Assembly (NCBI RefSeq): GCF_010993745.1 | Contig: NZ_WOTN01000004.1 | Span: forward strand, 1,116,001-1,180,000 | DNA length: 64,000 bases | Reading direction: 5' to 3' | Origin: Fodinicola acaciae | GTDB taxonomy: Bacteria > Actinomycetota > Actinomycetes > Mycobacteriales > HKI-0501 | Part shown: piece by piece, positions 40,570 to 59,604 of the stretch | Layout: every line of letters begins with the position of its first letter | Numbering within the stretch: the first letter of the stretch is position 1 | The notes under the pieces: generated by a model | Seen by the model: only the letters and a program-made list of their open reading frames with translations | Database searches by the model: none | Told to the model about the DNA's origin: nothing | Made by a program: the position numbers and the translations under genes

Positions 40570-40580
40570 CGTCACCTCTT

Positions 40581-40595
40581 ATCAGGGACCCTGAT
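40581..40595. promoter_or_regulatory. Palindromic operator upstream of the amidohydrolase gene
   Basis: ATCAGGG-A-CCCTGAT is a perfect 15-bp palindrome with a central A. It lies in the 55-base gap between the amidohydrolase start and the solute-binding-protein stop. No regulator gene is adjacent. Confidence 0.55.
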
Positions 40596-40624
40596 CTCCA
40601 GGAAAGCGGGTCGAGCGTACGTCG

Positions 40625-41323: not shown

Positions 41324-41338
41324 CCGAACGAGCGTATG

Positions 41339-42952
41339 TCAGCCCTGGATGCGCGACTCGTGCCCCTGCCATTCGCGCTCGCGCAGCTGGAACTTCTGGA
41401 TCTTGCCGGTGGAGGTTTTCGGCAGTTCGGCGACGAAGTCCACGCTGTCCGGTGCCTTGAAGCGGGCCAGCCGGCCGCGTACGTGCTCGATGATCTCCTC
41501 GGCGGTCGCGGCGGCACCGGACCGTAACACGACGAACGCCTTCGGCCGCTCACCCCACTTTTCGTGCGGTACGCCCACAACGGCCACTTCCAGCACCGCC
41601 GGATGCGAGTCGATGGACGCCTCGACCTCGATCGTCGAGATGTTCTCGCCACCGGACACGATGATGTCTTTGGCGCGGTCGCGAAGCTCGATGTAACCGT
41701 CCGGGTGCCAGACGCCGAGATCGCCGGAATGAAACCAGCCACCGCGAAAAGCGCGCTCGGTCGCCTCCGGGTCGGCGAAATATCCGGACATCACGTTGTT
41801 GCCGCGCATCACCACCTCACCCATGGTGGCGCCGTCGCGCGGCACGTCGGTCATGTCGTCGGCGACGACGCGTACGCCGTCGGTGACCACCATGCCGACG
41901 CCTTGCCGAGCCAGCTTTTTGTTGCGTGCCTCGGGATCCAGCCGCGTCCAGCCGTCCTGCACCTCGCAGACCGTGTACGGCCCGTAGGTCTCGGTCAGGC
42001 CGTAGACGTGCACCAGCCGGGCGCCGAGCTCGGTCATCCGGCCGATCACCGTCGGACTCGGCGGTGCGCCGGCCGTCGTGACCACGATTTCGCGTTTCAG
42101 CGGACGTGCCTGCTCGGCATTCGCAATGGTCACAAGGACAGTTGGCGCGCCGTTGAGATGCGTAATGCCTTCTTCGTCGAACAGCCGCCAGATTTCCGCC
42201 GGGTCGACGGCGCGCAGGCACACGTGCGTGCCGCCGATCGCCGTGACGGCCCACGTCGTGCACCAGCCGTTGCAGTGAAACATCGGCAATGTCCACAGAT
42301 AGCGCGAGTCCGGCGTGTGTCCACTGTGGACGATCTCGGCGAGCGAGTTCAGATAGGCACCGCGATGGTGATACATCACGCCTTTGGGCATGCCGGTCGT
42401 GCCGGACGTGTAGTTGATCGAGATCGTCGACCGCTCATCGGCCACACTCCAGGGCAGCGGTGTGTCCGCGCCGCGCTCCAGCAGCTGCTCGTACGTGATG
42501 CCACCGACCGCCGGGTCGGCGCTGGCGCCGGACGCGGGGTCGGTGACGGTGACGATCTCCAGGCCGAGGCCGTCGGCGACCGGCGCGATCGTCGGATGCA
42601 GCGCGGCGTCGACGACCAGCATTTTCGCGCCGGAGTGCGCGCAGATGTGGCGCACCTCGGCGCCGGCCAGCCGCGTGTTGATCGCCACCAGCACCGCGCC
42701 GCCGAGCGCGACACCGAAGTGGGCGACCAGCATCTCGGGGATGTTGGGCAGCAGGTACGCGACGCGGTCACCGGACTCGATGCCGCTGGCACGCAGCGCG
42801 TGCGCCAACCGGGTCGCCGCGGCGGCGAACTGTGCATACGTGACGCGCCGATCACCGTACGCGATGGCCGTCTTGTCCGGAAAGACCCGCGCCGACCGGT
42901 CCAGGAAGGCAAGTGGTGTGAGCGGTGTGAACCAGGTGTCCTCTGTGGCCAT
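41339..42952 (-). CDS. AMP-forming fatty acyl-CoA synthetase
   Basis: A 537-residue ANL enzyme. The P-loop is INYTSGTTGMPKGV near residue 180, then VHVYGLTETYGP, WFHSGDLGVW and RDRAKDIIVSGGENIS. The C-terminal catalytic lysine lies in PKTSTGKIQKFQLRE. The size and motifs fit the medium/long-chain (FadD/AlkK) group. It activates a carboxylate to its CoA thioester. ATG 42952 is preferred over the in-frame start at 42961. Confidence 0.92.
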   Translation of the reverse strand: MATEDTWFTPLTPLAFLDRSARVFPDKTAIAYGDRRVTYAQFAAAATRLAHALRASGIESGDRVAYLLPNIPEMLVAHFGVALGGAVLVAINTRLAGAEVRHICAHSGAKMLVVDAALHPTIAPVADGLGLEIVTVTDPASGASADPAVGGITYEQLLERGADTPLPWSVADERSTISINYTSGTTGMPKGVMYHHRGAYLNSLAEIVHSGHTPDSRYLWTLPMFHCNGWCTTWAVTAIGGTHVCLRAVDPAEIWRLFDEEGITHLNGAPTVLVTIANAEQARPLKREIVVTTAGAPPSPTVIGRMTELGARLVHVYGLTETYGPYTVCEVQDGWTRLDPEARNKKLARQGVGMVVTDGVRVVADDMTDVPRDGATMGEVVMRGNNVMSGYFADPEATERAFRGGWFHSGDLGVWHPDGYIELRDRAKDIIVSGGENISTIEVEASIDSHPAVLEVAVVGVPHEKWGERPKAFVVLRSGAAATAEEIIEHVRGRLARFKAPDSVDFVAELPKTSTGKIQKFQLREREWQGHESRIQG

Positions 42953-42978
42953 GGTCACCATCCTGGCGAGGCCGCGAG

Positions 42979-43380
42979 CTACCTACAAGGGTTGTAGTAG
43001 CAGTACCAGCGGCGCATCCAGTCCGGCATGGCCGGCTGTGACGGCTGCGTCGCGGGTCGCCGCGTGGCCGGCTTGCGGCTCGGCGGAGCTGGCGCGTTGT
43101 CGGACTTGGGTGTCGCCTTGCCGCGCCGCGGGGTGGTCGTCTCGTGCGGTGCCGACACCGGTTTCGGCGCGTCGGACTGTGGGCTGGACGGCGCGCTGGC
43201 CGGCTGCTGCGTGGCCGCCGCGGTCGCTGCCGTCTCGGTGTTGGAGCTCGCCGAGATGCCCGCCAGGATGGCGCCGACCGCGACCACCGCGCCGATCGAG
43301 GAAAACCCCACCACCCGGTTGTCCGGCGGCCGGAGGATCGTACGGCGCCACACACTCGGCATCCGGTGCCGGCCGCGCAT
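42979..43380 (-). CDS. Small single-pass membrane protein, Pro/Ala-rich tail
   Basis: A 133-residue protein from ATG 43380, which follows AAGGGGGATCG. One membrane helix spans about residues 26-47 (VVGFSSIGAVVAVGAILAGI). The exported tail is Pro-, Ala- and Ser-rich and ends PDWMRRWYCYYNPCR with two cysteines. There is no recognisable domain. The gene lies 26 bases before the acyl-CoA synthetase start in the same direction and is divergent from the MBL hydrolase. Confidence 0.65.
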   Translation of the reverse strand: MRGRHRMPSVWRRTILRPPDNRVVGFSSIGAVVAVGAILAGISASSNTETAATAAATQQPASAPSSPQSDAPKPVSAPHETTTPRRGKATPKSDNAPAPPSRKPATRRPATQPSQPAMPDWMRRWYCYYNPCR

Positions 43381-43468
43381 CGATCCCCCTTCCGCCGTAG
43401 CAGACACGTACCTTATACCCGAATTCGGGGCGCAGCGGAATGTCCCATGCGCATGAGAGAGTGCCGCT

Positions 43469-44404
43469 ATGAGTTCGAGCGGACACGACCATCCGGAGCT
43501 CGGGCCGGCCGAGCTGCACGAGGTCGGCGACGGGGTTTTCGCGTACGTCCAGCCAGACGGTTCCTGGTATGTCAACAACACCGGTTTCGTCGCCGGCCGG
43601 TCGTCGGTGATCGCCATCGACTCCTGCTCGACGCAGCGCCGCACGCGCGCTTTCCAGGAGCGGATCGCGTCGGTGACGCCGGCGCCGGTGACCGCGCTGG
43701 TCAACACGCATCACCACGGCGATCACACATACGGCAACTCGGAGTTCGGCGCGATTCCGGTCGTGGCGCACGAAAACTGCCGCACCGAGGTGCTGGCCTT
43801 CGGTTTTCCGGGAAACACCGGGATCTGGGATCCGGTCGACTGGGGCGACATCCGGATCGCGCCGCCGACGCTCACCTTCACCGACCGCGTACGGATGTGG
43901 TCCGACGACCACCCGGTCGAGGTGACCTTTGTCGGTCAGCCGGCGCACACCAGCAACGACAGCCTGGTGTGGCTGCCGGACCAGGAAGTGCTGTTCTGCG
44001 GCGATTTGCTGTTCAACGGCGGAACGCCGTTTTTGCTGATGGGGTCGGTGAAAGGCGCGATCGAGGTGTTGCGCGAGGTGGTCGCACCGATTCCGGCGCG
44101 CGTGATCGTGCCCGGTCACGGCGCGCCGTGCGACCGCGGCCTGATCGAAACCGTCACCGGCTATCTGGAGTTTGTGCTCGCCACCGCCGGCGACGGCATG
44201 GCGGCCGGCCTGACTCCGCTGGAAACGGCTCGGCAGACCGAGCTCGGCGGCTATGCCGACTGGCTGGATCGCGAGCGGATCGTCGGCAACCTGCACCGAG
44301 CGTACGCGGATCTCGACCCGTCACGGCCGAAGGTCGACATTCTCGCCGCACTCGCCGACATGATCGCGTACAACGGCGGAAAACCGCTGTCCTGCTATGC
44401 CTGA
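43469..44404 (+). CDS. Metallo-beta-lactamase-fold hydrolase
   Basis: A 311-residue MBL-fold enzyme with the dinuclear metal motif NTHHHGDHTYGN near residue 82. The later ligands are the His of GQPAHTSND, the Asp of LFCGDLLFNGG and the His of VPGHGAPC. It lacks the features of true beta-lactamases and fits the glyoxalase II/lactonase/quinoprotein-relay-like group. It probably acts with the cyclase gene 15 bases downstream in the same operon. Confidence 0.86.
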   Translation: MSSSGHDHPELGPAELHEVGDGVFAYVQPDGSWYVNNTGFVAGRSSVIAIDSCSTQRRTRAFQERIASVTPAPVTALVNTHHHGDHTYGNSEFGAIPVVAHENCRTEVLAFGFPGNTGIWDPVDWGDIRIAPPTLTFTDRVRMWSDDHPVEVTFVGQPAHTSNDSLVWLPDQEVLFCGDLLFNGGTPFLLMGSVKGAIEVLREVVAPIPARVIVPGHGAPCDRGLIETVTGYLEFVLATAGDGMAAGLTPLETARQTELGGYADWLDRERIVGNLHRAYADLDPSRPKVDILAALADMIAYNGGKPLSCYA

Positions 44405-44419
44405 GAGTGCGGAGATGAC

Positions 44420-45337
44420 GTGACTGATTTTCGGGAGATTGGCCGGCGACTGAGCAACTGGGGCCGGTGGGACCGCGACGGTGAGCGCGACGAGCGAGGC
44501 ACGACGAATTTCCTGACTCCTGAGCGGATCGTCGCCGCGGCCGGCAGCGTACGCACCGGCAAGGTCTTCGACCTGGGGATCCCGTTTGGTCCTGGCGGAC
44601 CGCAGCCGGCCGGCATGCGGATGAATCCGGTCCTGCTGATGGCCGAGACCGGCGACGACCAGGATTTCGGCGCGATGCATTTCGCCGACGACTACGTTTT
44701 CATGCCGCTGCAGGCAGCGTCGCAGTGGGACGCGCTCGCGCATGTCTATTACGATGACCAGCTTTACAACGGATTTCCGGCGTCCTCGATCACGCCGCAT
44801 GGTGCCAAACGCTGCTCGATCGACAAGCAGGCCAAGGGGATCGCCGGCCGCGGCGTACTGATTGACATCGCGCGCCATCGCGGCGTGCCGTGGCTGGACG
44901 CCGGGGAGGTCATCACACCCGACGAGCTGGATGCCGCGGTTTCGGCTCAGGGGACGCAAATCCGGCCGGGCGATGTGGTGGCCGTACGGACCGGCTGGCG
45001 CACGAAGTTCGTCCAGGACGGCGACCGGGAGGCGTTCATGTCCGCCGAGCCGGGGCTCGGCCTGGCCTGCTGCGAGTGGCTGCACGACCACGAGATTTCC
45101 GCCGTATGCTCGGACAACTGGGCCATCGAGGTGCTGCCCGGCGAGTCGGACGCGCTGCTGGCCGTGCACATGGTGCTGATCCGCGACCTGGGGATGACGC
45201 TCGGCGAGATGCTCGACCTGGACGAACTGGCCGACGACTGCGCCGCCGACGGCCGCTATGACTATTTTTTCTGCGCACCACCGATCAAGTTTCGCCGCGC
45301 CGTCGGCTCGCCGATCAACCCGCTCGCCATCAAGTAG
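44420..45337 (+). CDS. Cyclase-family (kynurenine formamidase-like) hydrolase
   Basis: A 305-residue PF04199 cyclase-fold protein. QWDALAHVYYDD replaces the usual H-G-T-H-x-D metal strand, and GRGVLIDIARHRG and PGDVVAVRTGW are typical of the fold. GGAGATGAC precedes GTG 44420. Relatives hydrolyse formamides or lactones with Zn or Mn. Its exact substrate is unknown. The MBL hydrolase and following MFS gene are in the same direction with tiny gaps, suggesting a small catabolic operon. Confidence 0.82.
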   Translation: MTDFREIGRRLSNWGRWDRDGERDERGTTNFLTPERIVAAAGSVRTGKVFDLGIPFGPGGPQPAGMRMNPVLLMAETGDDQDFGAMHFADDYVFMPLQAASQWDALAHVYYDDQLYNGFPASSITPHGAKRCSIDKQAKGIAGRGVLIDIARHRGVPWLDAGEVITPDELDAAVSAQGTQIRPGDVVAVRTGWRTKFVQDGDREAFMSAEPGLGLACCEWLHDHEISAVCSDNWAIEVLPGESDALLAVHMVLIRDLGMTLGEMLDLDELADDCAADGRYDYFFCAPPIKFRRAVGSPINPLAIK

Positions 45338-46537
45338 ATGGTCGACGCGGCGACCAGGCCGACTGTCCGGCACGGCTTCGGATTTCTGTGGACCGCTCAG
45401 GCGATCAGCGACATCGGCTCACAGGTCGGCGCGTTGGCGCTCCCGCTGGTCGGCGTTGTCGTCCTGCACACCACGACTTTCCAGACGTCACTCATCACCG
45501 CTTGCGCGGCTCTTGGGACGGCTATCTTCGCGTTGCCGGCTGGAGCATGGGTCGACCGCCGAGCGAAACGGCCGGTGATGATCGCCGCCGACCTCGTCCG
45601 GCTGGTGTTGGTCGCGTCCGTACCCGCCGCCTGGCTCTTCGGCGTGTTGACCGTCGCGCAGCTTTGCGTCGTCACGGCGGTCAACACCTTGCTGGAGGTG
45701 GTGTTCGCGTCGGCGAGCCAGGCGTTTTTGAAGAAGGTGGTGGGAAAGGACGACCTTCTCCAGGCCAACGGCAAGCTGCACGGCACGCTGTGGCTGGCCA
45801 ACCTGCTCGGCCCGGCGATCGGAGGTGTCGTCGTCGGTCTCGTCGGCGCGGCACTGACCGTGCTCGTGGACGCCGCGTCCTTCCTGTGCAGTGCCTTTAT
45901 CCTTTTGCTCGTACGGAAAGTCGACGACTCCGCGCGGCCGGCCCGGTCGAGCGGCGGCGTGAAAGAAGGCGTTGCGTTTCTCGCGCGGCACAGGTCGCTC
46001 CGGCGGTTGTTGGCCAGTTATGCGCTGATGTCGTGGACGATCGTGCTGCTCAGCCCCATCCAGACGCTTTTCCTGATCCGCGAGCTGCGGGTGACCTCGG
46101 CGCAATATGGCCTGGCCGTCGCGATCCCGTGTGTCGGTGGCCTGGTCGGTGCCTTTTTCGCTCGGCGTATCGCGGAAAGACTCGGGATGTTGTCGACCAT
46201 GCGGTGGTCCGGCCTGCTGCGCGGACCGTGGGTGTTGTTGGTGCCGTTGGCCTGGCCCGGCTGGTCGGGGCTCGCGGTGGCGATCGCCGGCTGGTGTGGC
46301 CTGCTGACCGCGGCCTCGATCTACAACGCGACGCAGACGACCTACCGGCAGCTGCACACCCCGGACCGGCTGATGGGTCGGGTGACGGCGAGCTGGTCGA
46401 TGGTCGTACGGTGCGGCCAGCCGGTCGCGGCACTGGCCGGCGGCGGGCTGGCCACGGTCATCGGCCTGCGGCCGACTTTGGTTGTCGGCGCCATCATCCT
46501 CAGCGCTGCCGGACTATTGCTGCCGACGAAGGATTAG
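45338..46537 (+). CDS. MFS transporter
   Basis: A 399-residue MFS_3-type protein with about 12 membrane helices. The loop 2-3 signature is WVDRRAKRPVMI, with HTPDRLMGRVTASW in the second half. It begins immediately after the cyclase stop and ends 4 bases inside the convergent L,D-transpeptidase gene. Exporter by family; the substrate is unknown. Confidence 0.87.
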   Translation: MVDAATRPTVRHGFGFLWTAQAISDIGSQVGALALPLVGVVVLHTTTFQTSLITACAALGTAIFALPAGAWVDRRAKRPVMIAADLVRLVLVASVPAAWLFGVLTVAQLCVVTAVNTLLEVVFASASQAFLKKVVGKDDLLQANGKLHGTLWLANLLGPAIGGVVVGLVGAALTVLVDAASFLCSAFILLLVRKVDDSARPARSSGGVKEGVAFLARHRSLRRLLASYALMSWTIVLLSPIQTLFLIRELRVTSAQYGLAVAIPCVGGLVGAFFARRIAERLGMLSTMRWSGLLRGPWVLLVPLAWPGWSGLAVAIAGWCGLLTAASIYNATQTTYRQLHTPDRLMGRVTASWSMVVRCGQPVAALAGGGLATVIGLRPTLVVGAIILSAAGLLLPTKD

Positions 46538-47355
46538 ACCGGTTTCTTGCCGAAGACGTGGACGTGCGTGCCGGACGTGGTCATCGAGTAGAGCTTGCTC
46601 GCGTCGCCGCGCAGCAGGTTGATGCAGCCGTGCGAGCCGGGGCTGTCACCCTCGTACAGATAAGTGGTCGTCTGGTGGAAACCCATGTCGGCGTGGAACC
46701 GCTGCCAATATGGCAGGCGCACCCTGAAATACGACGAGATGGTCGATTTTTTCTTGTCGGAGATGGAAAAATGCCCAGGCGGTGTGGCCAGGCCGGCACG
46801 TCCGGTGCGGATCGGCGTCGGGCCGAAGGCGATCTTGCCGCCGTTGTTGACCCACATGGTCTGCGAGGTCAGGTCCACGCAGACGGTGAACTTTCCTCTC
46901 GTGTCACAGGCGTTGAGCCTGGCCGCGGCGAGCCGCTTGACGATGTTGCCGGTCACCTTCCCGGCGTAACCTTTGGCCGGCATGATCCGGAAACGCTGCT
47001 GGAACTTCGCGATCGCCACGCAGTCCTGCGGTGACTGCCTGCCGTCGACGACGACCTTGCCGAAGCCGGGATGGCTGTCCAGATAGCGCTCGACCGCGGC
47101 TTGCGCGGGACCGGTTTCGCCGCAGGACAGGCCTCTGGTGTTGGCCGCCGGTGTCGGCGACGGCTTGGTCGGCGGCATCTCCGGCGTCGCCGGCGTGTCG
47201 GCCGGCTCGGTGGCGACCCGCTGGACCTCGACCTGCTTCTGGACGGGCCGCGGCGGGCGGGGGATGACACCGGTCGCGTACGCGACTCCGGCGCCGGTCG
47301 CGGTCAGCACGACCACCGCCGCCACCGCCAAGCCGATCACCGTACGACGTGCCAT
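46534..47355 (-). CDS. L,D-transpeptidase (YkuD) with peptidoglycan-binding domain
   Basis: A 273-residue exported protein. ATG 47355 begins a signal or anchor (ARRTVIGLAVAAVVVLTATG). A Pro/Thr linker follows, then a PGB_1-like domain (residues about 80-145; CVAIAKFQQRFRI). The catalytic YkuD domain has H-x15-SHGCINL (GSHGCINL near 247) with the nucleophile Cys. It makes 3-3 crosslinks or attaches proteins in the cell wall and is intrinsically beta-lactam tolerant. Confidence 0.92.
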   Translation of the reverse strand: MARRTVIGLAVAAVVVLTATGAGVAYATGVIPRPPRPVQKQVEVQRVATEPADTPATPEMPPTKPSPTPAANTRGLSCGETGPAQAAVERYLDSHPGFGKVVVDGRQSPQDCVAIAKFQQRFRIMPAKGYAGKVTGNIVKRLAAARLNACDTRGKFTVCVDLTSQTMWVNNGGKIAFGPTPIRTGRAGLATPPGHFSISDKKKSTISSYFRVRLPYWQRFHADMGFHQTTTYLYEGDSPGSHGCINLLRGDASKLYSMTTSGTHVHVFGKKPV

Positions 47356-47464
47356 GACCCCGCTCCTTCCGCGCCGACGACGCTGTCGGACTCCACGCAT
47401 TAGACGTATCAGAGTCAGGCAAGGTTGCCGAGTTCTTTGGAGTTTCTTGGTGGTCACCCGTTTG

Positions 47465-47938
47465 TCAGGATTGGAGCCATTTCCGCACCTGAGTCAGCAC
47501 GTCCGTGTCGTAATCCTGGCCGACCATCCGGCCCAGGTCGGCGATGGTGACGCCGCGGAGGGCCGCGCGCCAGGCGCGGTCGGCGGCGTGCATCGTACGT
47601 GCGATCGCGCATGGAGCCGTGCAGGCGTCCGGCGGCGCCGCCAGCGGTCCACGCTGGCGGATTTCCGTACAGACAAACGTCGACCCGGGTCCTTCGACCG
47701 CCTCCACCACGTCGAGCACGGTGATCTGCTCGGCGGACCGGGTCAACGTGTAGCCGCCGGATTTTCCTTGCACCGACTGGACAAGAGCGGCGCGGGACAG
47801 CGTCTGCAGCTGTTTTGCCAGATAAGTCGCCGATACGCCGTGCAGCTCGGCCAGCCGTGTCGCCGGCACCGGCTCCGGTGCCGTGGTGAGCACCACGCAG
47901 CAGTGCAGGGCCGACTCGACGCCACCGGACAACTTCAC
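47465..47938 (-). CDS. Rrf2-family regulator with cysteine triad
   Basis: A 157-residue protein from GTG 47938. The winged helix contains AELHGVSATYLAKQLQTLSR and QGKSGGYTLTRSAEQITVLDV. Three cysteines (VCTEI, DACTAPC) match the Fe-S or thiol-sensing positions of IscR/NsrR-type members. It is divergent from an NAD(P)-binding oxidoreductase and two dyads lie between them. A redox- or electrophile-sensing repressor of that enzyme is the likely role. Confidence 0.88.
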   Translation of the reverse strand: MKLSGGVESALHCCVVLTTAPEPVPATRLAELHGVSATYLAKQLQTLSRAALVQSVQGKSGGYTLTRSAEQITVLDVVEAVEGPGSTFVCTEIRQRGPLAAPPDACTAPCAIARTMHAADRAWRAALRGVTIADLGRMVGQDYDTDVLTQVRKWLQS

Positions 47939-47954
47939 GGCCCCAGTGTACTTG

Positions 47955-48003
47955 ACTCGGACAGCAATTGTCCGAGTATTATCTCGGACAGAATCCATCC
48001 GAG
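47955..48003. promoter_or_regulatory. Tandem Rrf2-type operators
   Basis: ACTCGGACA-N5-TGTCCGAGT (47955-47977) is a perfect 9+9 dyad. CTCGGA-N9-TCCGAG (47983-47988/47998-48003) repeats the half site and overlaps the oxidoreductase's leader up to its Shine-Dalgarno. Shared CTCGGA half sites imply one regulator. Confidence 0.72.
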
Positions 48004-48016
48004 TTTGGAGCTGATC

Positions 48017-48748
48017 ATGAAGATCGCGGTTGTCGGCACCGGCCTGATCGGCACGCAGGTCATCCAGAAGCTCAACGCGGCCGGTCATCAGGCCACCGGT
48101 CACTCGCGGCAGACCGGGATCGACCTGCTCACCGGCGCGGGACTCGACCAGGCGCTGACCGGCGCGGACGTGGTCGTCGACGTGTCCAACTCGCCGACCT
48201 TCGACGAGGCGTCGCTCGACTTTTTCCGTACGGCTGTGGGAAATCTGCTGCCGGCCGCGGACAGGGCCGGCGTCGGACACGCGGTGGCGCTGTCGATCGT
48301 CGGCGTCGACCAGGTGCCGGATCTCGCGTACTACCGCGCCAAGACGCTGCAGGAGGACCTGGTCAAGGCCGGGCCGGTGCCGTCGACGATCGTACGTGCC
48401 ACACAGTTCATGGAGTTCGTGCCCGCGGTGCTCGACTGGACCACCGACGGTGACGTCGTGCGCCTGCCGGCCACGCCGATCCAGCCGATCGCCTCCGCCG
48501 AGGTCGCCGACGCCGTCGCGTACGCCGCCGCGGAACGGCCCGGCGGGACGCTCAACACCGGCGGCCCGGACGTGTTCACGCTCGACGAGCTCGGCCGTGT
48601 CTTCCTGGAGGTCACCGGCGACGGCCGTACGGTCGTGGTCGACGACACCGCCGGCATGTTCGCCGCTGTCAAGGGTGACGTGCTGACCACGACCGAAGGT
48701 GCGCGGATCGCGCCGACGCATTACCGCGACTGGCTCCGTACGCGCTGA
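48017..48748 (+). CDS. NAD(P)-binding NmrA/quinone-reductase-like protein
   Basis: A 243-residue extended SDR/NmrA-like protein. The nucleotide loop is IAVVGTGLIGTQV at the N-terminus; it contains VVVDVSNSPTFDEA, YYRAKTLQEDLVK and STIVRATQFMEFV. The pattern matches NAD(P)H quinone or epimerase-like proteins often controlled by Rrf2 or HxlR repressors. GGAG precedes ATG 48017. It may reduce quinones or other electrophiles. Confidence 0.85.
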   Translation: MKIAVVGTGLIGTQVIQKLNAAGHQATGHSRQTGIDLLTGAGLDQALTGADVVVDVSNSPTFDEASLDFFRTAVGNLLPAADRAGVGHAVALSIVGVDQVPDLAYYRAKTLQEDLVKAGPVPSTIVRATQFMEFVPAVLDWTTDGDVVRLPATPIQPIASAEVADAVAYAAAERPGGTLNTGGPDVFTLDELGRVFLEVTGDGRTVVVDDTAGMFAAVKGDVLTTTEGARIAPTHYRDWLRTR

Positions 48749-48770
48749 GGCTCAGTTCCCCAACAGTCTC

Positions 48771-49304
48771 TCAGAAGGCCGGATTGTCGTGGTAGGTCCA
48801 GCTCGCATAGCTGTTGTTGGAGTGATAGGTCACCTTGTTGCCGGAGTTGCCGCCAACGCTGGCGACCACGAGCCTGCCGCCTGACCTGGACACGCCGACG
48901 ACGACCTCCACGTGGTGGCCGGTGGACTGTACGGCCACGTCACCGGCTTTTGGCGTGCTGACCCGCGTCCACTTCCGCCACGACGCGGCCGCCGGATAGC
49001 CGCTCGGCGCCCTGCCGCCGGCCTTGACCATCACCCAGGCGGCAAAGTCACCGCACCACGCCTCGCACCTGGTGGTGTAGGGATTGCAGTTGTTTCCCCA
49101 CTCCTTCATGCCGTTCTGGCTTCTGGCGATGCAGCTGATCTCGGCACCCGTCACGCCGGTTTTCACGCACGGCCTGGCCAGCCGGTTTGCCTTCTGTGCC
49201 GGCGTTTCCTTGGCCACCGTGGTGGCCTGTGCGGTCGTCGTTGCGGCGAAAGCACCTATGACACCGGCGACCAACACCAGTCCGAGCAGTTTGCGATGGA
49301 GCAC
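48771..49304 (-). CDS. Secreted CHAP/NlpC-like cell-wall hydrolase
   Basis: A 177-residue exported protein. GTG 49304 gives a signal peptide (HRKLLGLVLVAGVIGAFAAT, ending AQA) and has AAGGAG 5 bases upstream. The catalytic Cys lies in CEAWCGDFAAW and the His in STGHHVEVVVG, as in CHAP amidases or endopeptidases. PKAGDVAVQ between them is typical. A TTG at 49364 is in frame but would bury the signal peptide. Translation should be controlled by the hairpin that pairs the whole Shine-Dalgarno. The upstream neighbours are a WXG-type secreted pair. Confidence 0.82.
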   Translation of the reverse strand: MLHRKLLGLVLVAGVIGAFAATTTAQATTVAKETPAQKANRLARPCVKTGVTGAEISCIARSQNGMKEWGNNCNPYTTRCEAWCGDFAAWVMVKAGGRAPSGYPAAASWRKWTRVSTPKAGDVAVQSTGHHVEVVVGVSRSGGRLVVASVGGNSGNKVTYHSNNSYASWTYHDNPAF

Positions 49305-49305
49305 G

Positions 49306-49345
49306 TCATCTCCTTCTGTCGGGTGCCGCTGACAGAAGGAGATGA
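49306..49345 (-). promoter_or_regulatory. Perfect 15-bp hairpin sequestering the CHAP gene's Shine-Dalgarno
   Basis: In the leftward mRNA, TCATCTCCTTCTGTC, a 10-base loop, then GACAGAAGGAGATGA form an unbroken stem. The second arm contains AAGGAG (49315-49310) and ends 1 base before the GTG start. The ribosome binding site would therefore be closed unless something opens the stem. The leader between the previous gene's stop and this hairpin is only about 60 bases, too short for a large riboswitch such as ydaO. Confidence 0.75.
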
Positions 49346-49404
49346 TCGCGACGGCCGCTAACAAGTCCCTAATTTCTGGCTATGTCGGCCGCTATCGGTG
49401 CGGC

Positions 49405-51675
49405 TCAGATCTTGACCTGGCTCGCCTTCTGGTAGGCGTCGTAGGCCTTCGCCGCGTACGTGTCGATGTATGGCGAACCGCCGGCCTGGCGTACGGCATT
49501 GACCAGATTCTGCTTGACCGACGGGTCCGCCAGCGCGTCCCGCGACACCAGGTGTCCGTCTGTGACGAACGGTGCCAGCTCCGGGGGAACGTGACCGGAA
49601 CGCACCAGCGAGCTCGCGTAGTCGTACGCCGCCGTGACCTCTTGGCCGCCCTGCTGGTTGAAGGGGTTGTTGAGGTCCAGCTGGTGGCCGGTTGGCGGCG
49701 GGAAGTTGTACTGCACGAGGTGGTCGGTGATCTGACCGACCGTCAGCGAGGCGATGGATCCGACCCCCGGCAGAGTGCCGGCCAGGGTCTGCGCCAGTGA
49801 CTTGCCGGCGCCGATGTAGTAGAGGGTCTCGCGGTAGTCGAGCGCGGCCTTCGCGTCGTTGTGAGCGTTCAGCTGAGCCGGCGCGGCGGCGACCTGACCG
49901 TCCAGGATGCTGATCCGCTCGACCAGCTCCGCCTTTCGGGTGGGGTCGGCTCCGCGGTATTCGTCCAGCAGCTGAGCGTCGTAATTGCCGACCTTGACGG
50001 CGAGGCCAGTCAGCGCGGTCTTGTCCGTGGCGACCAGGCCGAGGAAGCGGGCCCGGTCCTGGGTGGACAGCGCCAGCGAGCCGTCGCCCTCGACCCGGCT
50101 GTCACCGTCCGGCGACTTCTCGGAGAAGTCCGACAGGTAGGACCCGGCGACATCGGCGTACGCGCGGGCCAGGTGCGGGTTGTTCGTCGTGCCGTCGATG
50201 AAGGTCTGGTAGCTCTTGTCGTCGCCAGCCGTGTCGATGACTACCAGTGCCGCGTCGCGGGCGTGCTTCCAGGTGTCGCTGTCGTGCGGCGCCTGAGCGT
50301 CGGTGGCGATCCAGTTGACCAGGCCGCTGGCGGCCGCGCCGTCGTCGTTCCAGTTGTAGTTGGTCAGCCGGGTGATGATCTCGTGACCCTGCTTGCCGGT
50401 GATGATGTCGTAGTTGGCGTCGTGGTTACGCGTCGAGGTGTTGAGGACGTACTGCAGGCCGTCCACCAGCTGTCCGCGGTCGTCGAGCAGGCCGGATGAG
50501 TTGACCGTGACACCGGAGGCCGTGTCGTGGACCCGGTCGTACGTGGCGGCGATCTCGTTGACCCGGTAGGTGAGGTCGGTCGAGAACTGCTTGCCGCCTT
50601 CGATGGTGGAGCCGGCGAACAGAGCGATGAGCCCCTTCCACTCGCCTTCCCGGTTGATGCTGTAGGTGGTGACGTTGGCGTCCGGAGCGACCTGCGAGTC
50701 GGAGCTGGTGATCGCCGAGTCGTGCACCAGGCTGCGGATCTCCGGCGGCAGCTGGTCGAACCCGCCGCCGATTTTCTCGTTGGACAGCGCCAACAGGCTG
50801 TCGCCAAGGTCAGGCAGGAAGCTTTGCGGACCGTTGCGGTCGCCGAGCAGCGTCAGGTCCTTGCCGAGCACACCCCACAACCCGCGCAGGAAGCCGAGCT
50901 CGCCGCCGCTGAGCTTCTGACCCGGATGCGCGAGCGCGTACTTCGCGTGCGCGTTGACCAGGCCGAGGACCCGGCGGGCCCAGTCGCGCTCCGCGAGGGT
51001 GCCACCGTTCTTGATGATCTCCGCCGCGCGCTGTCCGTCGGCCGGCGTGACCGGCGGTGCGATCGACGGGTCGGTCTGCTTGCCGAAGGCCACGTACGCG
51101 CCCCACGACAGCGCACCGGCCTGCGCCAGCTGCTGCAGGTCGGACTCGGTCGGGTCGCGCTGGATCTGGCTCGCGCGGTCGTTGGCCCAACCGCGCAGCT
51201 TCTCCAGCAGCTGGTGCGCCCGGTTGGTGATGTCGGCGGCCTTGGCGTTCTGCGCGCTGGCGACCTGCTGGTTGTAGCTGTTGATGGTCTCCTGCGCCTG
51301 TTCCTGCGTGGCGCCACCGGGCACGTACGGCTGGTGGACGCCGAAGGAGTTGCCGAGCGCCTGTTCCCACTCGGTCACCAGGGCGTTGCGCTCGTTCTTG
51401 AACTGCTGCACGTTCTGCGACCAGTAGGTGGTGACGCTGGCGCCGTACGTGATGCCCTGGAACGCCGACTCCCAGTCGGCCAGGTTCTTGCCGGCCAGGT
51501 CCTTGATCGGCCCGGAGACGATGTCGGAGAAGGACAGCGCGGCGGAGCTGATCGCCGCGTACACGTCGCCGCCGTGGCCCGTGACGGTGGCCGCGACCGA
51601 GTTGAGCTGCACGGCGCCAGCGGTGATCGTACCGGGATCGGCTTGGGTGTCGGGGATGTCAGGTGTCGCGGCCAT
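49405..51675 (-). CDS. Large WXG-associated helical protein
   Basis: A 756-residue protein from ATG 51675, behind GGAGAAAGAAC. The first about 100 residues resemble an ESX/LXG-type helical hairpin (DWESAFQG, then TTYWSQNVQQFKNERNALV). The rest is mostly alpha-helical, with no enzymatic motif I can name, and ends DTYAAKAYDAYQKASQVKI. There is no signal peptide. It is 31 bases downstream of the small WXG-like gene in the same direction. Such pairs are common type VII secretion cargo in actinobacteria, but no ESX machinery genes are in the window. The function is unknown. Confidence 0.7.
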   Translation of the reverse strand: MAATPDIPDTQADPGTITAGAVQLNSVAATVTGHGGDVYAAISSAALSFSDIVSGPIKDLAGKNLADWESAFQGITYGASVTTYWSQNVQQFKNERNALVTEWEQALGNSFGVHQPYVPGGATQEQAQETINSYNQQVASAQNAKAADITNRAHQLLEKLRGWANDRASQIQRDPTESDLQQLAQAGALSWGAYVAFGKQTDPSIAPPVTPADGQRAAEIIKNGGTLAERDWARRVLGLVNAHAKYALAHPGQKLSGGELGFLRGLWGVLGKDLTLLGDRNGPQSFLPDLGDSLLALSNEKIGGGFDQLPPEIRSLVHDSAITSSDSQVAPDANVTTYSINREGEWKGLIALFAGSTIEGGKQFSTDLTYRVNEIAATYDRVHDTASGVTVNSSGLLDDRGQLVDGLQYVLNTSTRNHDANYDIITGKQGHEIITRLTNYNWNDDGAAASGLVNWIATDAQAPHDSDTWKHARDAALVVIDTAGDDKSYQTFIDGTTNNPHLARAYADVAGSYLSDFSEKSPDGDSRVEGDGSLALSTQDRARFLGLVATDKTALTGLAVKVGNYDAQLLDEYRGADPTRKAELVERISILDGQVAAAPAQLNAHNDAKAALDYRETLYYIGAGKSLAQTLAGTLPGVGSIASLTVGQITDHLVQYNFPPPTGHQLDLNNPFNQQGGQEVTAAYDYASSLVRSGHVPPELAPFVTDGHLVSRDALADPSVKQNLVNAVRQAGGSPYIDTYAAKAYDAYQKASQVKI

Positions 51676-51706
51676 GTTCTTTCTCCATCAACAGATTCGG
51701 TCGTCG

Positions 51707-52051
51707 TCAGTAGGCGCGCCGGCCACCGGCGCCACGGTTGATCGGCGGAATCGCCGCCTGGCTCTGCTGGAAACCGCTCGCGGTCTGGTTGTCGGTGTTC
51801 ACCAGGGCGGCCGCGCCGGTCTGGATGTTGATGCCGGCGTTCTCGGCCAGCTGGATGATCTTGACCAGCCGGTTGACGAAATGGGACTCGTAGCCGGTGT
51901 ACGCGCCAGGAAGGCTGGCTTCCTTGGCCGCGCTGGCGCACGCCTGCGCGGCCGCGCTGAACTGCGACTTCACCGCGTTTCCGGCCTCCGCCGCGGTCTG
52001 GGTCTGCTGGCCGGCGGCGTGGGCCTGGTTGGGGTTGCCTGCGACCTCCAC
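51707..52051 (-). CDS. Small ESX/WXG100-like protein
   Basis: A 114-residue helical protein from GTG 52051, behind AGGAGG. It is Ala- and Gln-rich, with no clear W-x-G but a helix-turn-helix-length organisation and the tail ASGFQQSQAAIPPINRG. It is most likely the partner or chaperone of the large protein encoded 31 bases downstream. ESX assignment is by size, composition and context. Confidence 0.6.
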   Translation of the reverse strand: MEVAGNPNQAHAAGQQTQTAAEAGNAVKSQFSAAAQACASAAKEASLPGAYTGYESHFVNRLVKIIQLAENAGINIQTGAAALVNTDNQTASGFQQSQAAIPPINRGAGGRRAY

Positions 52052-52169
52052 GGCCGTCCTCCTGGTTCATGTCCTCGTGACGCATTCCTGTGCTGTTAAC
52101 GAAGGTATGCGGAGGCCGGAGCGGGGACATCACGGATTCGTGCCACTGCTTCGTACCGCTAAAACGCGG

Positions 52170-52967
52170 TCAGGACGTGAGCCCCGGCGCGAGGTTGAAC
52201 GCGAGCGCGACAAGGCCGCCCGCCGTCAGGAGCAGGGTCGTACCAGGGTGCATCCCGATCGACAGCCGCAGATCCTTCTTCCACCAGACGAGCAACGGCC
52301 CCGGCAGGAAGAAGATCACCCTCGAGACGAAACCCCACGGCGACCAGAAGTGGTAGAGCGAGAACAGCACCGTGTTGACCAGCGGCGCCCAGCGGCCCAA
52401 CTGGGGGAGGCGCGGCAACAGGAAGCCGCGGAAGTAGAGCTCCTCGATGAGAGGCAGGGCGAAACCGGTCAGCGGAAGACAGACCGCCAGCGTGGCGATG
52501 ATGGTCGAGCGCGGATAACCGGCCAGATATCCGGTGGCCGAGCCTGCTCCGTCAAACGGCAACCAGGTGAAAAACGCCTGGTAGATCGCGTTGTCCAGGA
52601 CCGTGAGCGCCAACGAAACCACCACGAACCACACGATGAGGGCCGCGACGATCGCGACGAGCTTCCCACGCGAGACCGGTTTGTCCAGGTATTTCAGCAC
52701 TCCTCGGAGCGAGTACCGGCCATTGCGCCGGCGCCCCAGCCACAGCAGACCGACCAGCACCGGCCCGAGGATTACGCACAAGGCGATTGCCCAACTGAGA
52801 AACGACGGACAGCCGGCGGCATGGACGAGCGGATTGACGAGAAAGTACGCCGCGACGACCAGGGCTCCGGGCACGAGATGGAGCGCGATGGACAGCGGGA
52901 GCGAATGCTGGTCGGCCAGGAGTTTGTCCGCCAGCCGGTTCGGTCGACTTGTTTGTGCGGTGGCCAT
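52170..52967 (-). CDS. CPBP/CAAX-type intramembrane metalloprotease
   Basis: A 265-residue protein with about 7 membrane helices. The family motifs are present: PLIEELYFRGF (Glu-Glu-x3-Arg), FSLYHFWSP and SIGMHPGT with metal-ligand histidines. Bacterial CPBP proteases process or tolerate peptides, or act in bacteriocin immunity. No peptide gene is evident beside it. The 192 bases upstream hold its leader and the tRNA promoter region, with no other gene seen. Confidence 0.87.
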   Translation of the reverse strand: MATAQTSRPNRLADKLLADQHSLPLSIALHLVPGALVVAAYFLVNPLVHAAGCPSFLSWAIALCVILGPVLVGLLWLGRRRNGRYSLRGVLKYLDKPVSRGKLVAIVAALIVWFVVVSLALTVLDNAIYQAFFTWLPFDGAGSATGYLAGYPRSTIIATLAVCLPLTGFALPLIEELYFRGFLLPRLPQLGRWAPLVNTVLFSLYHFWSPWGFVSRVIFFLPGPLLVWWKKDLRLSIGMHPGTTLLLTAGGLVALAFNLAPGLTS

Positions 52968-53159
52968 TTCTTCTCCTCAGCGGGATGGTCGGCTCATTGG
53001 ATGTGCGGCCACGTTCGCCGGCCCCGCGGACACCGTGCTGACACGGCGCTGACACTGAGGCGATGGTTGCTCCACCGGAGATGTGGCATCCGGTGTCGGT
53101 CGGGGCGGCGGCCAGACGCTATCCTCTGCAGTGGACGCGGTGGCATGCCGAGTCCAGTG

Positions 53160-53235
53160 GGGCCTCTAGCTCAATCGGCAGAGCAACGGACTTTTAATCC
53201 GTGGGTTCGGGGTTCGATCCCCCGGGGGCCCACCA
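53160..53235 (+). tRNA. tRNA-Lys(TTT), element attachment site
   Basis: Full cloverleaf: acceptor GGGCCTC/GGGGCCC, D-arm AGCTC..GAGCA, anticodon loop CTTTTAA with anticodon TTT, and T-arm CGGGG-TTCGATC-CCCCG. The discriminator A is at 53232 and CCA is encoded (53233-53235). The element's recombinase gene reads into it from the other strand, so its 3' half is the probable att core. Confidence 0.97.
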
Positions 53236-54919
53236 TGAACGGCTTACTCCAACCCTGATCCGCAAGGGTCGGGGCGGGTGAGCCGACCTCACTCTCCATA
53301 CGCTGCGTGGTCGCCTGTTCACGGCGACCAGTCGATGCACCTTGGCTGATGACGTACGTCCGGTATCCCGACGTGATGGCGTCGAACGGTGGCTCCATCT
53401 CGTGATCCACGATCTTGCCGCCATCGACGTACAGCCGGGTGAAGAACGCGCGGTTGAGGATCGAGCGCACCGCTTCGTCACCGCGGGCATAGGCCCGGTG
53501 CGGCTCCCGTAACAGGGTAAGCGCCTGGTCGAAGACTTCGCGGCCCCGGTCAAGGTGCTGGTCTGCCTGGTCAAGCGTTTGCTCGATGCCGGTGCGCTCC
53601 TGGCGGATGGCCGTGATCTTGGCGCGCAGCTTGTCCTTGGGCCAGTCTTGCTCGGCGGCTAGGTCGAGGAAGTAGTTCTCCTTGCGGTCGAGCGCATCGA
53701 GCCGCTTGGCGTACTGCTCACGTAGCGTGTCGCTCAGGCCGTGGTGCTCGGCGGTCGCTTCCGCCACTCCGGCCCGTACTGCCTCAAGCCACTCGTCAGG
53801 CAAGCTCACGGCGTCGGCGTAGTACTTGACGACTGCATCCTCCAGCACCTCGACCGGGATATACGGCAGGTCGCACAGCCCTTGCTGGCGACCCCGGCAG
53901 TAGAAGTAGTAATAGACACCGCCAAGCCGGCCGACTGCTCGTTGGACGATCAGGCGGTACTTGCACCGGCCGCACCACAGCGTGCCCTTGAGGTAGTGGT
54001 TGTGGCTGCGTTGCCGGGTTCCGGCCCCGGAGTGTGAGGCCAGGATCTCCTGCACGCGCGTAAACAGCTCCTCTGTGACCAAGGGCTGGTGGCGGCCCTT
54101 GTACTCAACACCGTCGTAGGTGACGTAGCCGACGTAGTAGCGGTCATGGAGCAGGTTGCGCAGCCGTTCCAGGGAGATTGGTTCACCGCCGCCTTTGCCG
54201 GTTAGCGGCATCCGCAGGCCAGCAGTCGTGAGCTTGCCGCGAAGCGAGGCAACTGTCTCGTTGCCGGTAGCGAACTGTTCGAACGCCATGGTGACGAAGT
54301 GCGACCGCTCAGGGTCAAGCACGATCGTATTGACCTTGCGACCGTCGATGAGTACGCGCTCGTTGCGGTAGCCGACCTTGGCGTGACCGATCGTGCCGCC
54401 GTTGCGTGCCTTATTGGCCATCTTGATCTTGATGTCCTCACCCGACATGCGGACTTGCAGCCAGTTGAACACGTCGGTGACGGCTTCCATAGCCTCGGCC
54501 ATGATGCCGTCGCCAAAGCTTTCCTTGGCAGAAATGAGCTTCACGTCAAGTTGGTTGAGCGCAACTTTGGTGTTGCCGGCGTCAACGTAGTTGCGGAAAG
54601 CGCGTGAGCGCATGTAGATGATGACGCAGTCCACGTCTCGTTGTTCCTTGATGCGCCGCATCATCTCCCTGAAGACTGGCCGCTTGGCGATGGTCTGTCC
54701 GGAGTTGCCGGGCTCGACGTATTCGTCAACGATGACTGCGCCAAGCTGGCGAGCGCGCTCGACGCAGACCTTGCGCTGGGTGTCGATCGAGTTGCCGTCA
54801 GGGTCAATATCGGCGTCAGTATCCATCTGCCGCTTTGAGGAAACCCGTAAATAGAGAACAGCGCGCAGTGCTGGGCCAGCGGCACGGCGTACGCGCTCGA
54901 CCGGCGACCGCTTGGGCAT
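53171..54919 (-). CDS. Large serine recombinase (integrase) of the element
   Basis: A 582-residue large serine recombinase from ATG 54919 (GGAGG 6 bases upstream). The catalytic serine lies in YLRVSSKRQ near residue 27, and resolvase motifs such as DCVIIYMRSRAF follow. The recombinase domain runs from about 180, and a zinc ribbon is formed by LWCGRCKYRL and YCRGRQQGLC. A coiled-coil-like region follows. The last about 20 residues are antisense tRNA-Lys sequence, showing the gene end was formed by integration. It should excise and integrate the element. It forms one operon with ImmA and XRE. Confidence 0.93.
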   Translation of the reverse strand: MPKRSPVERVRRAAGPALRAVLYLRVSSKRQMDTDADIDPDGNSIDTQRKVCVERARQLGAVIVDEYVEPGNSGQTIAKRPVFREMMRRIKEQRDVDCVIIYMRSRAFRNYVDAGNTKVALNQLDVKLISAKESFGDGIMAEAMEAVTDVFNWLQVRMSGEDIKIKMANKARNGGTIGHAKVGYRNERVLIDGRKVNTIVLDPERSHFVTMAFEQFATGNETVASLRGKLTTAGLRMPLTGKGGGEPISLERLRNLLHDRYYVGYVTYDGVEYKGRHQPLVTEELFTRVQEILASHSGAGTRQRSHNHYLKGTLWCGRCKYRLIVQRAVGRLGGVYYYFYCRGRQQGLCDLPYIPVEVLEDAVVKYYADAVSLPDEWLEAVRAGVAEATAEHHGLSDTLREQYAKRLDALDRKENYFLDLAAEQDWPKDKLRAKITAIRQERTGIEQTLDQADQHLDRGREVFDQALTLLREPHRAYARGDEAVRSILNRAFFTRLYVDGGKIVDHEMEPPFDAITSGYRTYVISQGASTGRREQATTQRMESEVGSPAPTLADQGWSKPFMVGPRGIEPRTHGLKVRCSAD

Positions 54920-54942
54920 AGTGCCTCCAAGATGTAAAGGTG

Positions 54943-55620
54943 CTAGCCAGCCAGGTAGGACAAGCCCGCTGGTTGACTCAGGGTCGGTAAGCCACAACGA
55001 CGGAAGTACCCACGCGGCCGTGGCTTGGGGTCGCTGGTGAGGTTGAGTTTCTTTAGGCGGTACGACATGGCCTCAACGGACACACAGAACGTGTTTGCCA
55101 TGAGCTGTACGTCGTGGTTCGTGGTCTTTAACCACAGGCGCTTCACCAAAGCGGTCGGCATGAGGACATGCGCGGCAAAGTCGTTGGCCACGGCCTCGAT
55201 CAGGTTCTTTTGTGTGTCTTCGTTGCCACACCCAAGTTGCTGATGCAACACCGACGCATCTTTGAAATCAAGCACGTGCTTAAACTCGTGCAGGAGAGAG
55301 AACCGCTGCCGCAGCGGGGGTTCATTCTCGTTAATGAAGACTTGCAGCTGGTTGTCGATGTAGTCGGTCGTGAGGCCGCTTTCTTGGTTAAGCCGGTGGC
55401 TCGGCACGAAATGTACCGGCACGGCTTGTTGGTCGACCAGCCAAATGAGGTTGATATCAGCCGTCGTTGCAGCGTTTGCCCAGTCCCGCACTCGAGCGGC
55501 TTGGACACGGGCCAGCTGCAATGACTCGCCGTACGTGAGTGGCCGCTTCGGTGCGATGGCACGAAGTTGATCTATGAGTTCCCACATTGCTTTCTTAGTC
55601 GGCTTTGTCGTCACCGGCAT
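54943..55620 (-). CDS. ImmA/IrrE-type metallopeptidase (antirepressor)
   Basis: A 225-residue protein. ATG 55620 overlaps the XRE gene by 26 bases. The zinc motif HEFKHVLDF (H-E-x2-H) lies near residue 115, with the third ligand expected in EAVANDFAAHVLMP. The C-terminal region resembles a small helical DNA- or partner-binding domain. In ICEBs1 such a protease cleaves the ImmR repressor to induce excision and transfer. Gene order XRE-ImmA-recombinase makes the same role likely here. Confidence 0.88.
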   Translation of the reverse strand: MPVTTKPTKKAMWELIDQLRAIAPKRPLTYGESLQLARVQAARVRDWANAATTADINLIWLVDQQAVPVHFVPSHRLNQESGLTTDYIDNQLQVFINENEPPLRQRFSLLHEFKHVLDFKDASVLHQQLGCGNEDTQKNLIEAVANDFAAHVLMPTALVKRLWLKTTNHDVQLMANTFCVSVEAMSYRLKKLNLTSDPKPRPRGYFRRCGLPTLSQPAGLSYLAG

Positions 55621-55972
55621 CCCCCTTCCGTTTCTGTAGTTGATGTTCGATAAGCTGTGCGAGCGCATCAGCTTCTGTGCTGTTGAGGCCATACTTCCGG
55701 CGAAGGTACAACCGTGGTTCGGGCAGGTCTTGCCGCACGCCAAGAAAGGCAAGCAGCGTACCCGAGTCAATCTGCAAGGCGTCAGCGATGCGTTGCAGTA
55801 TGTCGGCAGCTGGTTTGGCACGCTTGCCAGCCTCGATCAGCGCCAAATACGACGGATCGATACCGGTTTTTGCTGCAAGCTGCGCTTGCGAGACGCCTAG
55901 GCGTTCACGTGTGGTGCGGATAAACGTTCCCAATGCGCTTGCCGCATCGCCCAAACTAGCTTCATCTGGCAT
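55595..55972 (-). CDS. XRE-family repressor (ImmR-like)
   Basis: A 125-residue protein. The Cro/CI helix-turn-helix is at residues about 15-70 (LGVSQAQLAAKTGIDPSYLA, then LIEAGKRAKP). The C-terminal 45 residues would be the oligomerisation part or ImmA cleavage target. GGAGGGACC precedes ATG 55972. It is the first gene of the immA-recombinase operon and its promoter carries the dyad TGACTATGGTCA. Confidence 0.9.
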   Translation of the reverse strand: MPDEASLGDAASALGTFIRTTRERLGVSQAQLAAKTGIDPSYLALIEAGKRAKPAADILQRIADALQIDSGTLLAFLGVRQDLPEPRLYLRRKYGLNSTEADALAQLIEHQLQKRKGDAGDDKAD

Positions 55973-55995
55973 TGGTCCCTCCGCTTACTTCTTAC

Positions 55996-56024
55996 TATTG
56001 TCCGCCGATTCTTGACTATGGTCA
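55996..56024 (-). promoter_or_regulatory. Predicted repressor-operon promoter with operator
   Basis: On the minus strand TTGACC (56024-56019), 17 bases, GACAAT (56001-55996). The 14-bp dyad TTGAC-TATG-GTCAA (56011-56024) covers the -35. Its core TGACTANNGTCA recurs at 59551-59562. Confidence 0.7.
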
Positions 56025-56055
56025 AGGGTTTTATGCACAACAACATCTGAAATGT

Positions 56056-56853
56056 CTACAGTTTTGTTGTCTTACTTAGAAAGTTCGCAGCAGTGTTAAA
56101 GCACTGCACGTGTACCAGCCCGAAAAGGTCACTAAAACCGTCAATCAGGCTGGCTACAGCCTCACGTCGTTCCTTGTCAGGCACAGTCACCAGGACACGT
56201 GGCATGACCCCGCTCGGTGCCAGTTGGCCGCGCCGCGCGAAGTCCACGTAGGCCGCCAACTTTCGCCGAAGCGTTGGCAGATGCTCGGTGGCGCGGTCGA
56301 TCTCCAACCACCAGTCATCATCGTGGGTTTCGGTACTCAGCACGGCATAGGCATCCGGCTTCAGCCAACTACCGAGGCCATCGGCTACCCAACAGCCAGG
56401 CTCAGTCTGAAACGCCGACACCTCAAACCCATCGCTGTGTGCTGCCTCACGCAATTGGACATACAGCTCACTAACATCGAGCGTATGCGCCAAGAACCGC
56501 TCACCGGGCAACCGCGGCCGGCGTTGGCTGGCTTCGTGTGCCGTCAACCGCTGCCCCGCTGTGTCAAGGGCGAAGACGAGCTTGGCCGAACCGTGCAATG
56601 AACCGCCGATACGCCGCTGCAAGGGCACCAGGACGCGCCAATCCACGAGCCGCTTCAACACGCGCCAACGCACAACCGTTCGGCTACGGCCTGCCAGCTC
56701 AGCAAAATGCAGGCGTTCGAGCTGTTCGCCGGTGGCGACGCGGATCTTAGCCAGAGTCGTGAGAATCGCGCGATCACGAGATGACAGCCGGTCGTTGAGC
56801 CAATCGACATATTGTTCACGGACACGCTGCCGCTGGCTGGCCGCCGCCCTCAT
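56056..56853 (-). CDS. Replication-relaxation family protein
   Basis: A 265-residue protein of the actinobacterial replication-relaxation group (PF13814). An N-terminal winged-helix-like segment (RDRAILTTLAKIRVATGEQL) is followed by a nuclease-like fold with DAYAVLSTETHDDDWWLEID. AAGGAG precedes ATG 56853; a longer start at 56880 is possible. It is the last gene of the transfer series and overlaps the 45-residue microgene by 4 bases (ATGA). Family members occur in conjugative elements, but their mechanism is not defined. Confidence 0.82.
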   Translation of the reverse strand: MRAAASQRQRVREQYVDWLNDRLSSRDRAILTTLAKIRVATGEQLERLHFAELAGRSRTVVRWRVLKRLVDWRVLVPLQRRIGGSLHGSAKLVFALDTAGQRLTAHEASQRRPRLPGERFLAHTLDVSELYVQLREAAHSDGFEVSAFQTEPGCWVADGLGSWLKPDAYAVLSTETHDDDWWLEIDRATEHLPTLRRKLAAYVDFARRGQLAPSGVMPRVLVTVPDKERREAVASLIDGFSDLFGLVHVQCFNTAANFLSKTTKL

Positions 56854-56987
56854 AGGGGAACTCCTTGCAGGACGTACCATTGCCCGGTCGCTATGGCGGC
56901 GAATCCGTCATCTACCAGCGGCGTTACGTACTCGTGGTCAGCGGTGAACCCAACACCGACGCCAACAGCGATACCAACACGGTTCAC
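56850..56987 (-). CDS. 45-residue microgene between VirD4-like and replication-relaxation genes
   Basis: Starting at GTG 56987, which overlaps the VirD4-like stop (GTGA), it encodes 45 residues ending ATGQWYVLQGVPL. Its stop TGA overlaps the next gene's ATG (ATGA). Both junctions are 4-base overlaps, so it is very likely translated, although no known domain is visible. The Gly/Val-rich start (GIAVGVGVGF) could be a weak membrane or amyloid-like segment. Confidence 0.7.
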   Translation of the reverse strand: MNRVGIAVGVGVGFTADHEYVTPLVDDGFAAIATGQWYVLQGVPL

Positions 56988-59460: not shown

Positions 59461-59540
59461 AGACCTCCCCTTTCTGCTTAGCTCCGTTCTCTGATTTGGG
59501 TGCTGTGGAAGCTGATCCGCGCTACAAGCCCCTATGTCTT

Positions 59541-59569
59541 CTTATGCCCATGACTAAAGTCACCGTCAA
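59541..59569 (-). promoter_or_regulatory. Transfer promoter with predicted repressor site
   Basis: On the minus strand TTGACG (59569-59564), a 17-base spacer and CATAAG (59546-59541). Within the spacer is TGACTAAAGTCA (59551-59562), sharing TGACTANNGTCA with the XRE promoter. A repressor bound here would block polymerase. Confidence 0.68.
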
Positions 59570-59604
59570 GTCCGAACATTGCGTTCCGTAGCGCGAATCA
59601 GGGG

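Follow-up and report, generated by a model that had tools for sequence, protein, structure and literature searches.

In a 64,000-nucleotide stretch of the Fodinicola acaciae genome (contig NZ_WOTN01000004.1; referred to here as the window), the Shine-Dalgarno (SD) sequence of a gene encoding a CHAP-type protein is buried in a perfect 15-bp hairpin that none of the relatives we found possesses. The reading we favor, at a probability of roughly 0.5, is that this hairpin is specific to the lineage, was most likely made by template switching, and would hold translation of the gene permanently low if transcripts start upstream of position 49345. The features on which the analysis draws are collected in Table 1.

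Table 1. Features at the hairpin locus (window positions; all on the minus strand)
Feature	Position	Strand	Basis or remark
5′ arm (anti-SD), TCATCTCCTTCTGTC	49331..49345	-	exact reverse complement of 3′ arm
Loop, 10 nt, AGCGGCACCC	49321..49330	-	leader alignment
3′ arm, GACAGAAGGAGATGA	49306..49320	-	exact reverse complement of 5′ arm
Shine-Dalgarno AAGGAG, inside 3′ arm	49310..49315	-	5 nt before GTG; kept in F. feengrottensis and the paralogue
Candidate template-switch tract, 11 nt, TCATCTCCTTC	49335..49345	-	blastn plus/minus 11/11
Conserved upstream block, candidate promoter or operator, GAAATTAGGGACTTGTTAG	49358..49376	-	zero-mismatch search
Leader homologous to F. feengrottensis leader	49304..49385	-	blastn 91/119 identity, ACATAG into CDS
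CDS, 177-aa CHAP-domain protein, GTG start	48771..49304	-	Pfam PF05257
EspA-like TPR_23 protein gene, co-directional, upstream	49405..51675	-	Pfam PF23275; stop 60 nt before hairpin

The two arms, read on the minus strand, pair at 15 of 15 positions by Watson-Crick rules, and a single base (C 49305) separates the 3′ arm from GTG 49304; the sequence thus confirms an earlier claim of a mismatch-free hairpin containing AAGGAG one base before the start codon. Nowhere in the 8.86-Mb genome is there a second exact copy of the 15-base arm. Folding of positions 49260–49400 as RNA gives −65.5 kcal/mol, where shuffled sequences average −46.3 (z = −5.0; 0 of 200 shuffles did as well), and in this predicted fold the GTG start codon is paired as well, with CGCG just upstream of the 5′ arm. 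Our background sample was 1.264 Mb of this genome, made up of the window and 60 further stretches of 20 kb each. In it, 35 inverted repeats pair perfectly over 15 bp or more around a loop of 3–20 nt. Three Markov copies of the same 1.264 Mb contained no perfect 15-bp arm with loops in that range, the longest being 14. The hairpin is therefore beyond chance, yet perfect hairpins of this size are so abundant in this genome that the base rate alone demands caution.

The product of the gene behind the hairpin matches the Pfam CHAP family marginally but above threshold (27.8 bits against a cut-off of 26) and, judged by eye, has a signal-peptide-like N-terminus, which agrees with the secreted wall hydrolase proposed earlier; among solved structures, the search with this protein returned only Aln2, at a non-significant E of 0.65. 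In F. feengrottensis an ATG stands at the position that corresponds to GTG 49304 and follows the same SD, which supports this start. Comparison with that species gives a dN/dS of 0.14 (0.085 past the first 30 aligned codons), a sign of purifying selection which argues that the CHAP gene was needed during most of the time since the two lineages parted. Such selection implies function for most of that time and gives the hairpin no date.

Homologues of this protein are rare. We found a paralogue in the same genome (C2:176660; 80%), an F. feengrottensis HKI 0501 homologue (L014/L013; 82% or 89%, depending on the tool) and two homologues in Micromonospora. Wider searches gave matches in 2 of 160 genomes of the genus Micromonospora, 3 of 399 at the level of the order and 1 of 395 at the level of the class, all of which proved by contig position to be the loci already in hand (L013–L016) or the window's own genome and none of them new; no homologue was found in the viral contigs searched. 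The hairpin is missing from every one of these relatives, that is, from F. feengrottensis, the paralogue and both Micromonospora homologues. The sequence-only reading had looked to covariation among relatives as a check on the stem; with the hairpin in none of the homologous leaders found, the stem has no covarying pairs to show. In F. feengrottensis the leader is homologous and keeps the SD, but only 8 of its 15 arm positions form Watson-Crick pairs, with one wobble in addition. Beyond the leader, the neighboring genes at the two loci are unrelated (compared through the ORFs of L014), and the gene upstream is divergent in F. feengrottensis and co-directional in the window. The leader of the paralogue (C2:176625-176660, or L012 ~3125-3160) has a short TCTCCT/AGGAGA stem of its own over the SD, with a 3-nt loop.

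The differences between the two Fodinicola leaders suggest how the perfect stem arose. Seven substitutions distinguish their arms, and at all seven places the window has a Watson-Crick pair where F. feengrottensis has a mismatch or a wobble. Five of them fall in the 5′ arm, whose counterpart in F. feengrottensis is CCATCGAGCTCTGTC, and four of these five are consecutive (GAGC to TCCT); the other two fall in the 3′ arm (GCCGG to GACAG) and both create pairs. As template switching requires, the GAGC-to-TCCT cluster sits inside a tract of 11 nucleotides, TCATCTCCTTC, that matches the exact reverse complement of GAAGGAGATGA, the SD region of the F. feengrottensis leader. The loop, AGCGGCACCC, stands where the paralogue and F. 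feengrottensis have a common segment, GAGGC(A)(A/G)TCCCGCCTC (GAGGCAATCCCGCCTC versus GAGGCAGTCCCGCCTC). The expectation for reaching a perfect 15-bp repeat from the F. feengrottensis leader by independent substitutions, indels being ignored, is ~1e-6.

The direction of these changes can be read in part. In the gene tree the paralogue lies outside the pair formed by the window gene and F. feengrottensis (support 98/97), and because it agrees with F. feengrottensis in the loop and at the two 3′-arm bases, those changes are polarized as derived on the branch to the window, with this paralogue as the one outgroup that sets the polarity. The five 5′-arm changes are not polarizable because that part of the leader has no alignment with the paralogue. 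Should the window bases at these five places be the ancestral ones, the outer 11 bp of the stem would be ancient and F. feengrottensis would have lost them, and the pair-creating pattern would be trivial. Micromonospora has an A at both 3′-arm places, as the window does, in a leader alignment that is unreliable. Selection for pairing leaves a similar trace and, with one informative leader pair, may also account for the pattern.

We propose the following sequence of events. The starting point would have been an imperfect inverted repeat in the hydrolase leader, comparable to the 8 of 15 pairs in the sister species, which intrastrand template switching would have homogenized: the SD-side arm would have served as template for the nine outer pairs on the 5′ side, the 5′ arm in turn for the inner portion of the 3′ arm, and the loop would have lost 8 nt. 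A transcript begun upstream of 49345 would from then on carry its SD and start codon in a very stable stem, initiation would be set low, and the paralogue C2:176660 would be left as the better translated copy. A narrower version, in which a single template-switch accident during replication locked the ribosome-binding site of the hydrolase in the perfect hairpin and was then fixed in the lineage, we put forward only tentatively. Template switching is known to make perfect RNA stems (PMC8794818) and to homogenize the arms of short inverted repeats (PMC8604942), and the present stem has in common with those cases an imperfect repeat that became perfect, adjacent substitutions that match a copy of the other arm, and a changed loop. 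In contrast to the published cases used here, which concern RNA genes and yeast coding sequence, this stem falls on the ribosome-binding site of an mRNA, and it is represented by one informative leader pair whose direction is partly resolved. A literature search returned no publication that describes this hairpin. If the proposal is right, a strong cis-acting translational brake can arise without gradual selection, since an imperfect inverted repeat beside an SD would suffice and template switching would then perfect it. The proposal predicts that in other non-conserved perfect stems covering an SD, one arm will show runs of substitutions templated on the other, and it is a warning not to take a perfect SD-covering hairpin for a regulator before relatives have been checked.

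The stem is predicted to occlude the SD and start codon strongly. The cost of opening the SD and start codon, a model energy for isolated RNA and not a translation level, comes to 26.6 kcal/mol for the segment −45 to +10, 22.9 kcal/mol for −60 to +35 and 18.0 kcal/mol for −80 to +60. At −60 to +35 it ranks first among 502 sampled gene starts of this genome (median 10.0, 99th percentile 19.5); the sample was drawn by a heuristic and includes mis-called starts, and the comparison is conservative, since several of those ranked just below seem to be internal codons called in error. This ranking was also the sole means by which other SD-covering perfect stems were looked for. In the relatives opening would cost about 2–11 kcal/mol, with values at −60 to +35 of 9.8 for F. 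feengrottensis, 7.2 for the paralogue (below the genome median despite its own SD stem), and 4.8 and 1.8 for the Micromonospora homologues. When the leader is folded from −30, with most of the 5′ arm absent, the cost is just 9.6 kcal/mol, and the occlusion therefore rests wholly on the position of the transcription start. Provided that the transcript begins upstream of 49345, the SD and start codon are probably strongly occluded; the earlier claim of reduced ribosome access is in line with this predicted barrier of ~23 kcal/mol.

Such a barrier would also be expected of a regulated translational lock, in which selection perfected the pairing and a helicase, an RNase, an antisense RNA or a ribosome on an upstream frame opens the stem. 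We consider this improbable. The SD is exactly and perfectly occluded and the start codon paired too, the product is plausibly a wall hydrolase, the gene is kept under purifying selection, and the SD of the paralogue also lies under a stem, all of which would suit a lock; on the other side, the hairpin is conserved in none of the four relatives (sister orthologue, own-genome paralogue and two Micromonospora homologues) and opening the paralogue's stem is predicted to cost less than the genome median. SD-sequestering mRNA hairpins include translational attenuators, RNA thermometers and the locks on type I toxin mRNAs. This hairpin is like them in bringing an anti-SD arm and an SD arm together in one local stem, but the leader differs from them in having no conserved leader peptide, melting range, alternative fold or conservation. 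A thermometer, suggested earlier, is contradicted by a predicted mean SD pairing of 0.998 at 60 °C and still 0.984 at 80 °C. The suggestion of an overlapping upstream frame holds insofar as the frame of TTG 49364 is open here and reads through the hairpin in frame with the CDS, adding 20 codons; it fails in F. feengrottensis, where the leader is 8 nt longer and its open in-frame stretch contains no ATG, GTG or TTG as a counterpart start. Direct coupling to translation of the EspA-like gene would be unlikely, given the 60 nt between its stop and the hairpin. A search of positions 40000–60000 against Rfam at the gathering score found a tRNA at 53160-53232 and no family at the hairpin, just as the sequence-only reading had expected of known riboswitches, and neither an alternative structure nor a ligand domain was seen in the leader. 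None of the comparative evidence supports regulated locking of a dangerous enzyme, which is a possibility only, and opening of the stem by helicase, RNase or antisense RNA is speculation.

Slightly less probable still is that the hairpin has no effect, because the transcript begins within the 5′ arm or beyond it, the full stem never occurs in mRNA and the change is neutral at the level of DNA. In Actinobacteria, mRNAs commonly have short leaders or none, which would favor this account, as would the retention of the gene, the absence of a recognizable upstream promoter, and the ordinary opening cost of a leader that lacks most of the 5′ arm. The sigma-70 promoter scan found no match nearby on either strand and is consequently no help in placing the start. 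Against a start within the stem, we saw by eye no TAnnnT box placed to direct one. The best candidate for the promoter region is the conserved block listed in Table 1: GAAATTAGnGACTTnTTAG is kept in both Fodinicola species, and in each genome its sole zero-mismatch match is the one upstream of the CHAP gene. This block makes a transcription start upstream of the hairpin the more likely case, and if it holds the −10 element the start would lie near 49351 or further upstream. The consensus for MtrA, a regulator of the OmpR family, consists of two GTnAC-type half-sites ~11 bp apart (PMC5650626, PMC6265350). On the reverse strand the block reads CTAAC-N6-CTAAT, in which the spacing is right but the first base is C and not G, so that we regard it as a weak lead.

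We think it unlikely that the hairpin is a terminator or attenuator of the upstream EspA-like gene that covers the SD incidentally. Most of the perfect repeats in the 1.264-Mb sample, located with gene calls from a crude GC3 heuristic, do have a high G+C content and a stop codon no more than ~30 nt away, and they stand between genes that converge or run in the same direction; the upstream gene is co-directional here and divergent at the F. feengrottensis orthologue. The present stem shares perfection and a similar length with the terminator-like hairpins of this genome, but it lies over an SD, 60 nt past the upstream stop, and is not among the terminator-like scan matches. Its G+C content of 47% is the lowest listed, against 52–93% for the remaining hairpins whose arms reach 14 bp or more, and no T run follows it; moreover, both arms derive from the hydrolase leader and not from the 3′ end of the upstream gene. 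The low G+C, the missing T run and the wrong place speak against an intrinsic terminator. What is unusual about this hairpin is its place over the SD and its low G+C, not its perfection. A repeat of a more terminator-like kind occurs elsewhere in the window, at 18241-18278, where perfect 15-bp arms with an 8-nt loop stand 14 nt past a predicted gene end.

An operator at the DNA level, at which a dimeric regulator binds the inverted repeat, is very improbable: the 15-bp half-sites are symmetric and close to the likely promoter, but the genome holds no other exact copy, the orthologue lacks the inverted repeat, and the conserved element lies elsewhere, at 49358-49376.

Some further features lie apart from the hairpin. 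For the EspA-like TPR_23 gene, this genome has five additional matches and F. feengrottensis has partial ones. The palindrome GCATGGCCACCATGC...GCATGGTGGCCATGC, whose arms reach 25 bp, is dispersed over this genome in 83 copies and occurs in neither F. feengrottensis (an assembly 74% complete) nor G002. Many copies stand directly after stop codons (examples of the palindrome are at L036 17791-17845, L078 5726-5778 and L022 16518-16566), and the family, REP-like or terminator-like in character, looks to have multiplied in this lineage. Another family consists of the perfect palindrome GACGCAATCGG...CCGATTGCGTC around a 3-nt center, of which the 1.264-Mb sample has four copies (L041 16720-16754, L043 17724-17758, L057 18615-18649 and L071 6957-6991). 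Finally, a 608-aa ORF on the minus strand of the window (53171-54997), by eye similar to large serine recombinases, overlaps the tRNA gene at 53160-53232 on the plus strand, so that its C-terminus is encoded on the strand opposite the tRNA; this overlap suggests an element integrated at the tRNA.
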